Of a DNA stretch of 37,553 nucleotides, positions 13,586 to 33,903 are shown one piece after another. Source of the DNA: Candidatus Cloacimonadota bacterium. GTDB taxonomy: Bacteria; Cloacimonadota; Cloacimonadia; Cloacimonadales; Cloacimonadaceae. The position numbers and the translations under genes are program-made. Numbering within the stretch: the first letter of the stretch is position 1; each line of letters begins with the position of its first letter. The notes below the pieces were generated by a model. The model saw only the letters and a program-made list of their open reading frames with translations, did not search any database and was not told where the DNA came from. The DNA is taken from NCBI GenBank assembly GCA_020532215.1, contig JAJBBF010000065.1:1-37553 (forward strand). Direction: 5' to 3'.

Positions 13586-14353
13586 TTGAGCAAGATCATA
13601 CAGAAGATCGTTGAATATTTCAACGGCAAAAAGATAGCAGAGCACTATCCCAAGTGGGAAAAAAGCCTGGCCCAACTGCAAAAGAGGATCGAATACAGCT
13701 TTCACGACCTCACCCTGCTCAAGGCCGCGCTTACCCACAAATCCTATCTGCGCCGCAATTTCGGCGACCACAAGACTCCCTCGCCCTTCGAACGGATGGA
13801 GTTTCTGGGCGATTCCATCCTCGGCTTCATCGTCTCCAAGGAACTCTTTGCCCGCCATCCCGACGAGCAGGAGGGAAAACTCAGCAAACTAAAGTCCAAG
13901 ATCGTCTCCGAAACCTACCTCACCTTCAAAGCCAACGCCCTCGACCTCGGCAAATACCTGCTGCTCAGCCCCGAGGAACAGCAATCCGGCGGCGCCAAAA
14001 AACCCTCCATCCTCAGCGACACCGTGGAAGCCCTGATCTGCGCAATCTATCTGGACAGCGGCATCTCCTCAGCCACCCGCTTCATCAAAAACCAGATCCT
14101 CACAGACTATGAGACCACGGTGAACCGCAACGAGCTGGTGAACTACAAAAGCATCCTCCAGGAACACCTGCAATCCCGCAGCGAAGAGCCGCCACGCTAT
14201 ATCACCATCGCCGAGGAAGGCCCCGAACACAACAAGACCTTTGTGGTGGAAGCCCGCCAGGGCAATGAACTGCTGGGCCGCGGCAAAGGCGGCACCAAAA
14301 AAAACGCCCAGCAGGAAGCCGCCCGCGCCGCCTGCCAGAAACTGGGCATCTGA
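13586..14353 (+). CDS. rnc: Ribonuclease III
   Basis: RMEFLGDSILGFIVSKELF signature, C-terminal dsRBD (GRGKGGTKKNAQQEAARAA); TTG start. Confidence 0.95.
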   Translation: MSKIIQKIVEYFNGKKIAEHYPKWEKSLAQLQKRIEYSFHDLTLLKAALTHKSYLRRNFGDHKTPSPFERMEFLGDSILGFIVSKELFARHPDEQEGKLSKLKSKIVSETYLTFKANALDLGKYLLLSPEEQQSGGAKKPSILSDTVEALICAIYLDSGISSATRFIKNQILTDYETTVNRNELVNYKSILQEHLQSRSEEPPRYITIAEEGPEHNKTFVVEARQGNELLGRGKGGTKKNAQQEAARAACQKLGI

Positions 14354-14432
14354 GCCGTCCTCCGATTCCGGGCCCCAGCGTTCCAGAACAAGCTGTGGAT
14401 CCAATTTTTTCTGGATGTTTCCTTACCCGGCC

Positions 14433-14515
14433 CCCATTATCATTACGGGATAAATACGGGATCAATACGGATGAAATCCGTATTGATCCCGTATTTATCC
14501 CGTAATGATAATGGG
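14433..14515 (+). repeat. Perfect palindrome, 40-bp arms with 3-nt spacer
   Basis: Left arm 14433-14472 CCCATTATCATTACGGGATAAATACGGGATCAATACGGAT; right arm 14476-14515 is its exact reverse complement; spacer GAA. Confidence 0.95.
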
Positions 14516-14659
14516 AGCGACCCTGGATGAGCAGGTTGAAAAACCTGGCCCAGGGACTGTTCAGGACTGCCTTTGATCCTGCCGGCGCAACCAGGCCAGG
14601 GAGCTTGCTGAAACTATTGCGCTCCTAATTCCTTTGACTGGCACGATTATTGCATAAAA

Positions 14660-15637
14660 ATGATGCAACAACTGAGGATACGGGAGGAAACGATGCATCC
14701 AGTTTCTCAGGCCGAGAGTTCCGGGGTTTTGATCCATCCGCTTTTTTTGGGCATGCGCGGCTGTCCCGGCCGCTGCGTTTATTGCGATCAGGACAAGCTG
14801 AGCGGCAGCAGCGGCTATGATCTGGAAGAGAGCGTGGCCAGGGTGAGGGAGTTTGTGCGGCATCATCCGGAGCGGGAAAAGCAGGTGGCTTTTTACGGCG
14901 GGACTTTCACCGCTTGGGAGCGGGATTCGCGGGAAAAGTTGCTGCGCGGGGTTAGTGAGGTTTGTGACGCGCGGACCAGTTTCCGCATCTCCACCCATCC
15001 CCTGTATGTGAGCGAGGAGATCCTGGCTTGGTGCAAAAATTGGAACATCCGCACCATCGAACTGGGCATCCAGGATTTCAACCCAGAGGTTTTGGCCTTG
15101 TCCGGCCGCGGCTATAGCGGCCAGGAAGCCCTGGAAGCCGCTTACCGGGTGAAAAAGCAGGGTTTTGAACTGGGGATCCAACTGATGCCGGGCTTGCCGG
15201 GATGGTCGGAAGCCAGCCTGGAAGAGAACCGGCGGATCCTGGCCGAACTGAAGCCTGATCTCTTGCGGCTCTATCCCCTCATCGTGATCCGCGGCACCGC
15301 TTTGGAACAGCTTTTCAACAGCGGGGAATACTTTCCGCTGAGCCTGGAGGAGGCAATAACCCAGTGCGCGGACTATTATCCCGTGGCCCGGCGCGCCGGA
15401 TTCCGCATCATCAAGCTGGGCATCCCCTCGAACATCGATCCGGCCGAGATCGCCGGCGGACCCTGGCATCCGGCTTTTGGCGAACTGGTGAAGGCGGAAC
15501 TGGCGGCCCGCAAAGTTCTGGCCATTGATCCGCAGGAGCAGGCAGTGACCTTAAGCAGAGATGAGATCCGCCTGCTGAAAGCGCATGGCGGGGCGGCGCT
15601 GCAAAAAGTTCAGGATTGGTTCGAACAGCACTCCTGA
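14660..15637 (+). CDS. Radical SAM protein (Elp3-like/COG1243-type)
   Basis: GCPGRCVYCDQ (CxxxCxxC), FYGGTFTAW, ELGIQ; located immediately after rnc as in several phyla. Start could also be ATG 14693. Confidence 0.85.
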   Translation: MMQQLRIREETMHPVSQAESSGVLIHPLFLGMRGCPGRCVYCDQDKLSGSSGYDLEESVARVREFVRHHPEREKQVAFYGGTFTAWERDSREKLLRGVSEVCDARTSFRISTHPLYVSEEILAWCKNWNIRTIELGIQDFNPEVLALSGRGYSGQEALEAAYRVKKQGFELGIQLMPGLPGWSEASLEENRRILAELKPDLLRLYPLIVIRGTALEQLFNSGEYFPLSLEEAITQCADYYPVARRAGFRIIKLGIPSNIDPAEIAGGPWHPAFGELVKAELAARKVLAIDPQEQAVTLSRDEIRLLKAHGGAALQKVQDWFEQHS

Positions 15638-33632: not shown

Positions 33633-33903
33633 CCAGCGCAGGAGAATGCGTGAAAATTCATTTCTAAGTCCCGGAGGGACGGAATTTTAGATAGATACGG
33701 TGATTTCGAGATGTTTAATGTGAGTCCCTTGGGGACGACACATATGATACGTATCTCATTGTGGTTTATGTGAATATCAAGTTCCATAATGCCGTCCCTC
33801 CGGGACTCCGTGGGCATTTTGGGACTTCGGTTCTATCTGAAATTCCGTCCCCACGGGACTTTTTTACGGAATCCTCTCTTGCTTGTCACACAGCCTGCGC
33901 TGG
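33633..33903. repeat. Nested inverted-repeat element with four GTCCC-N3-GGGAC units
   Basis: Outer IR CCAGCGCAGG (33633-33642)/CCTGCGCTGG (33894-33903); inner 30-bp IR 33666-33695/33832-33861 (27/30); GTCCC-N3-GGGAC at 33668, 33724, 33794, 33847. Confidence 0.85.

Follow-up and report, generated by a model that had tools for sequence, protein, structure and literature searches.

A dispersed palindrome with an 11-bp unit downstream of rnc in a Cloacimonadota genome: design, distribution and possible origin

The locus and the anatomy of the palindrome

The window, which is the whole stretch of 37,553 nucleotides of Candidatus Cloacimonadota bacterium that was analysed, contains rnc (13586-14353, forward strand), coding for ribonuclease III (PF14622/PF00636/PF00035), followed on the same strand by the gene of a radical SAM protein with a Radical_SAM_C domain (14660-15637; PF04055/PF16199). 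The rnc protein shares 43% identity with that of a Cloacimonadota MAG and 36-38% with those of other phyla, in agreement with an assignment to Cloacimonadota but no proof of it. The 306 bp between both genes hold a palindrome that far exceeds every other close inverted repeat of the window in length. Its two arms of 40 nt (14433-14472 and 14476-14515) are exact reverse complements separated by a GAA loop (14473-14475; TTC on the opposite strand), and they reach 43 nt (14430-14518, 98%) if one mismatch is allowed. The left arm shows phased 11-mers, TACGGGATAAA at 14444, TACGGGATCAA at 14455 and TACGGATGAAA at 14466. Both the exact arms and the phased 11-mers had been described in a previous sequence-only reading of this DNA and were confirmed at these positions.

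The whole element spans 14429-14519, with its centre at 14474 and four 11-bp turns on each side of the 3-nt loop. The core of 71 bp (14439-14509, centre ±35) is nearly invariant, with about 2 bits at almost every position in 31 own-genome copies. From the loop outwards, the left arm consists of three 11-bp units on the forward strand, TCAATACGGAT (14462-14472), TAAATACGGGA (14451-14461) and TCATTACGGGA (14440-14450), the self-match of the arm at lag 11 being 0.78; the right arm (14476-14508, reverse strand) has the same three units, inverted in order. The fourth turn is the foot, GGCCCCCATTA on the left (14429-14439) and TAATGGGAGCG on the right (14509-14519). The predicted RNA fold of the intergenic region lies 9.9 s.d. 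below that of shuffled sequences; there is no T-tract 3' of the palindrome and the Rfam search of the window gave no match. Directly 3' of the palindrome a smaller hairpin, CCCTGG...CAGGTTGAAAAACCTG...CCAGGG, occupies 14521-14555.

Copies in the host genome

The host genome assembly (G000; 1.95 Mb in 178 contigs, about 80% complete) was searched with one arm of the palindrome, which resulted in 59 forward and 56 reverse matches (58 and 55 with a second pattern) and none with the reversed pattern used as control. The palindrome at 14433-14515 is one of about 60 near-identical copies dispersed in the host. Because copies lie no more than a few hundred bases from contig ends in several genomes, the counts are lower bounds. 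Related to this, many contigs of four other genomes (G003, G009, G012 and G020) break within 100-250 bp of a copy, and the palindromes probably fragment these metagenome-assembled genomes. The possibility of an assembly fold-back, raised previously, is excluded in practice, since the flanks of the copies differ, many arms are imperfect, and the copies come from many contigs and several independent genomes.

None of the 51 distinct host copies that were read lies within a gene predicted by the simple codon model made for this analysis. They are found between tandem (26), convergent (9) or divergent (8) gene pairs, while for the other 8 the contig ends or no neighbouring gene was called; these classes are much like those of the ordinary gene pairs of the window (20 tandem, 4 convergent and 4 divergent). 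Terminator-like positions are not preferred among these copies, and the distances from copy to gene vary widely. An intrinsic terminator was rejected on the absence of a T-tract at the copy described here and on the gene-pair classes, which include divergent positions, and the previous statement that the palindrome is not a standard terminator stands.

When the host copies are aligned on their centre, they hardly vary from ±2 to ±35. At ±36 to ±45 they vary within a restricted alphabet, with GGCYCC...GGRGCC as the consensus of the foot, and conservation drops to the background beyond about ±53 (50 own-genome copies). Each arm is thus made of three similar units and a foot, four 11-bp turns in total. 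No target duplication was detected, as no direct repeat of at least 5 bp is common to more than 2 of 50 copies.

The two sides of the same copy are not independent. In the core, left and right arms match each other more than expected from random dealing (z +5.0), and positions 14, 22 and 25 covary. In the foot, on the other hand, pairing is below random (z about -3.7) at positions 36-38 and 42-45, most strongly at 36 and 45. Fixed left and right ends were considered as a cause, given that the feet differ within a copy beyond chance, and rejected: the assignment of bases to ends at position 36 is uncoupled from that at 45 (20 to 15), and the asymmetries at 36, 39, 42 and 45 are weakly coupled. 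For this reason the foot asymmetry is read as kept mispairing, and the simplest reading is that the mispaired foot is maintained as such. In the REPs of E. coli and their transposase, the unpaired state of the bulge outweighs its sequence (PMC8266576), and the mispaired foot may be a parallel of that bulge. The proposal that perfect arms imply a recent origin is too simple, as the arms of the core are kept complementary by compensatory changes and homogenised in each genome.

Relatives and orthologous sites

Within the genus, four further genomes carry the palindrome (G003, G007, G009 and G012, with about 35-75 matches per strand), and the strict pattern has no match in eight others (G001, G002, G004, G005, G006, G008, G010 and G011). 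The non-carrier G002 sits with G003 among the carriers in the rnc tree, with moderate support, so the presence of the palindrome is patchy. Five species of the genus have a common design, which consists of a 3-nt loop, four 11-bp turns per arm and the foot GGCYCC/GGRGCC. The core differs in each of the four further carriers, with palindromy, length and period unchanged.

In 25 of 26 matches between orthologous neighbouring genes, both copies of the palindrome adjoin the same end of the gene. Sites with shared neighbours make up 8 of the 16 sampled copies of G003 and 5 of the 13 of G012, and about one would be expected by chance in each case according to our own estimate from gene numbers. At 22 orthologous pairs, 317 of the 344 diagnostic core bases are those of the consensus of their own genome and 26 those of the other genome. 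That orthologous sites retain the element and yet bear a genome-specific core is concerted evolution. A clean empty site was not seen at the DNA level because the flanks are too diverged.

The 11-bp rule in unrelated families

The 11-bp period is not a property of one sequence. A second family with the unit TTAATCAAGNN is dispersed in eight genomes (G001, G004, G005, G009, G010, G013, G017 and G020), and a variant with the unit ATCAAGAGCAA occurs in G019. When 50 genomes were searched for units, 14 of them matched at 11-bp spacing and none at the 10-bp spacing used as control. Unbiased sampling of 200 kb from each of two genomes (G016 and G034) gave many further unrelated palindrome families; all 19 sampled palindromes with strong internal repetition (defined by minima of 16 for the paired arm and 0.6 for the internal self-match) have a period of 11, and none of four palindromes from other phyla has a period of any length. 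In 13 representative arms the self-match at lag 11 is 0.68-0.92 and at all other lags 0.45 or less. At one locus, between the same two genes, the TTAATCAAG family of G001 stands where G000 and G012 have the TACGG family. As 11 bp correspond to one helical turn, such arms may offer an identical contact at each turn. No description of palindromes with an 11-bp period was found in a search of openly accessible papers.

Y1 transposases and RAYT genes

Y1 transposases (PF01797) are encoded at three places of the host genome. One of them is a TnpA of the IS200/IS605 type (clade A; NF033573 at 75.7 bits, cut-off 55) with conserved HxH motif and Tyr115. A palindrome with the 11-bp period is located downstream of this gene and of its orthologues, at 260 bp in the host, 27 bp in G007 and 81 bp in G009, the one of G009 belonging to the other sequence family. 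By our reading, 13 of 40 Y1 loci are accompanied by such a palindrome at a distance of up to 1.3 kb. Within the genus, a strong Y1 hit is present in all seven genomes with at least 16 copies of either palindrome family and in none of the six others. This link is weak beyond the genus: G066 contains copies but gave no Y1 hit, and Y1 occurs in many genomes with neither family. Among 80 loci of TnpA homologues from other phyla, any palindrome was found at only two, neither of this design.

Another of the three Y1 genes of the host is RAYT-type, and in both G000 and G003 such a gene has a copy of the palindrome about 300 bp downstream. RAYT as partner of the palindrome is weakened by the fact that RAYTs adjoin classical GTAG REPs, and the association is probably incidental because classical GTAG hairpins, and not the long palindrome, flank the RAYT genes in G007 and G001. 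The best candidate mover would be the IS200/IS605-type TnpA, for which the palindromes directly downstream in three genomes are suggestive.

Possible explanations

A role specific for rnc is unlikely. It had been proposed that the palindrome is an RNase III hairpin that autoregulates rnc, and a copy is indeed found 3' of rnc in four genomes (G000, G007, G009 and G012), of which G007 and G009 are not independent counts because their sites were fetched through the radical SAM gene. Nevertheless, rnc has no 3' copy in seven relatives (G001, G002, G003, G004, G008, G010 and G011). The spacing between rnc and the radical SAM gene in relatives is about 5-54 bp without the palindrome and about 300 bp with it (L068 versus L071, L072, L074, L081 and L082). 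The specificity for the rnc transcript that is expected of an RNase III autoregulatory leader was not found, since about 58 copies lie elsewhere, more than 50 of them by unrelated genes and 8 between divergent genes. As the reason for the element, a private hairpin of rnc with 3' autoregulation is therefore extremely improbable. More generally, the copies could act as RNA, as transcribed double-stranded stems of 34-44 bp which serve in termination, in stabilisation or as substrates of RNase III, with 11 bp as one turn of A-form RNA. The very stable predicted fold, the compensatory changes in the core and the many copies 3' of genes, rnc included in four genomes, are consistent with this. It is nonetheless improbable: there is no T-tract, 8 of the 43 classifiable copies lie between divergent genes with classes like those of ordinary gene pairs, the foot that would close the stem pairs below chance, and a function of double-stranded RNA needs no identical sequence in 50 unrelated transcripts.

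The other readings act on DNA. The palindrome could be a MITE moved by a DDE transposase, that is, two terminal inverted repeats without a middle, as the terminal GGCYCC/GGRGCC symmetry and the dispersal might suggest; this is very improbable given the lack of target-site duplication, the fact that the most conserved part is the centre and not the ends, and that no longer element bearing such ends was encountered. A helically phased array, in which six to eight 11-bp sites per palindrome bind a DNA-binding protein of the host (architectural, partition-like or regulatory), the sites being functional, fixed and kept uniform by ectopic gene conversion, is a stronger contender that we still consider rather unlikely. 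It would account for a period independent of sequence, for conserved orthologous positions, for the gene gap that bears either the TACGG or the unrelated TTAATCAAG family and for outer arms that are not selected for pairing. Against it, no protein emerged as a candidate, the copies lie at very different distances from genes, whole sets are missing from near relatives such as G002, and the covariation of the core arms is more than a mere binding site requires. Of the phased array proposed previously, the 11-bp period has proved to be a general rule in the relatives of the host, and the protein has no candidate.

The explanation that we favour, tentatively and somewhat short of an even chance, is that the palindrome belongs to a miniature, non-coding, intergenic repeat population copied by a Y1-assisted single-strand mechanism with homogenisation. 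An IS200/IS605-type Y1 (HUH) transposase would act in trans on the element folded as a single-strand hairpin, for example where the lagging-strand template exposes it, and copy it. The mispaired foot may be the zone of recognition or cleavage, and a uniform set at fixed sites in each genome would result from new copies entering or overwriting resident ones, or from recombination among them. The 11-bp unit would provide identical contacts once per helical turn. This explanation agrees with about 59 copies against none in the reversed-pattern control, with the absence of predicted genes at all 51 copies read, with genome-specific cores at shared neighbours, with a core that pairs and a foot whose mispairing seems to be kept, with the lack of target duplication, and with IS200/IS605 TnpA beside palindromes in three genomes and the co-occurrence with Y1 throughout the genus. 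On the other hand, neither an insertion or excision event nor a clean empty site was seen, the conservation of position and the homogenisation fit gene conversion at fixed sites equally well, TnpA homologues of other phyla are without such a palindrome, relatives have classical GTAG REPs that belong to their RAYT genes, the Y1 link is weak outside the genus, and the tie between 11 bp and the helical turn is itself inferred.

Comparison with known systems

The suggestion of a REP/MITE-like mobile palindrome is borne out at the level of the class, by about 59 intergenic copies in the host. A REP/REPIN-like population is secure as a description of how the element works, not as a membership. Like REP/BIME elements (GTAG/CGTC), it is a short intergenic palindrome in tens to hundreds of copies, whose single strands can fold and whose families differ between related genomes. 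However, the flanks of the aligned copies have no conserved GTAG/CGTC tag, and REP stems have 5-13 bp (PMC3733652) whereas the core stem is of 34 bp and up to 43 bp here (range 34-44), 3-4 times too long; in addition it is built on an 11-bp unit, and classical GTAG REPs coexist in the same genomes beside RAYT genes. The REPINs of Pseudomonas, in which two inverted REPs form one hairpin, are similar in the symmetrical unit of about 80-110 bp, the compensatory changes, the homogeneous population per genome and a suggestive link to a Y1 transposase. In REPINs the ends are invariant and the spacer varies (PMC3116915), unlike in the palindrome, which has an invariant centre, variable ends and no spacer; the two conserved inverted end motifs of REPINs are absent. 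With the end hairpins of IS200/IS605 it shares the lack of target duplication, the imperfect feet and the IS200-type TnpA by some copies, but an IS-borne copy is not shown here. Those end hairpins are much shorter than the palindrome. ERIC, Correia/NEMIS and similar MITE-like elements are also intergenic palindromes of roughly 100 bp; to our knowledge, the sequences of ERIC and Correia/NEMIS are unrelated to the present one and an 11-bp period has not been described in them.

Dispersed palindromes of bacteria have long been known, and the news is that unrelated sequences converge on one 11-bp architecture. This sequence-independent architecture and the concerted evolution read at orthologous sites are what is new here. 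The homogenisation of short dispersed repeats in bacteria can rarely be tested at orthologous sites, and these palindromes allow it. Orthologous sites with genome-specific versions are also a natural set of substrates for finding the recogniser, be it a transposase, an architectural protein or an RNA mechanism. It is conceivable, if rather doubtful as a whole, that this bacterial family contains a new class of repeats, with many unrelated palindrome families whose arms of 11-bp units are selected for one identical contact per helical turn, which are kept uniform via concerted evolution at fixed sites and recognised by an as yet undescribed protein (or in RNA form).

Other repeats of the genomes surveyed

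Several other repeats were met in these genomes. Classical GTAG-tagged REPs (GTAGCGCAGCATTCCAATGCTGCG) occur alongside long palindromes in the host and in G003, G012, G020 and G034, and a textbook REPtron was found in G007 (L226, 1956-2990), with a RAYT-type gene, four GTAG hairpins (GTAGCCAGAGGATTCCGATCCTCTG) upstream at 36-bp spacing and one downstream. The RAYT of 210 aa of G000 and G003 (L233 and L221), which lies upstream of a palindrome, has repeated small palindromes (CCGGATNAATCCGG) on its 3' side that are perhaps its own REPs. In Candidatus Jettenia ecosi (L295), two palindromes of 81 bp (GGTCATTGCGAGGGT...CCCTCGCAATGACC) are located upstream of an IS200-type TnpA homologue, and an 11-bp period is not obvious in them by eye. 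Finally, the window itself contains a cluster of inverted repeats around AGTCCCGGAGGGACGGAATTTTAGA (33666-33861), which is a different repeat from the palindrome at 14433-14515.
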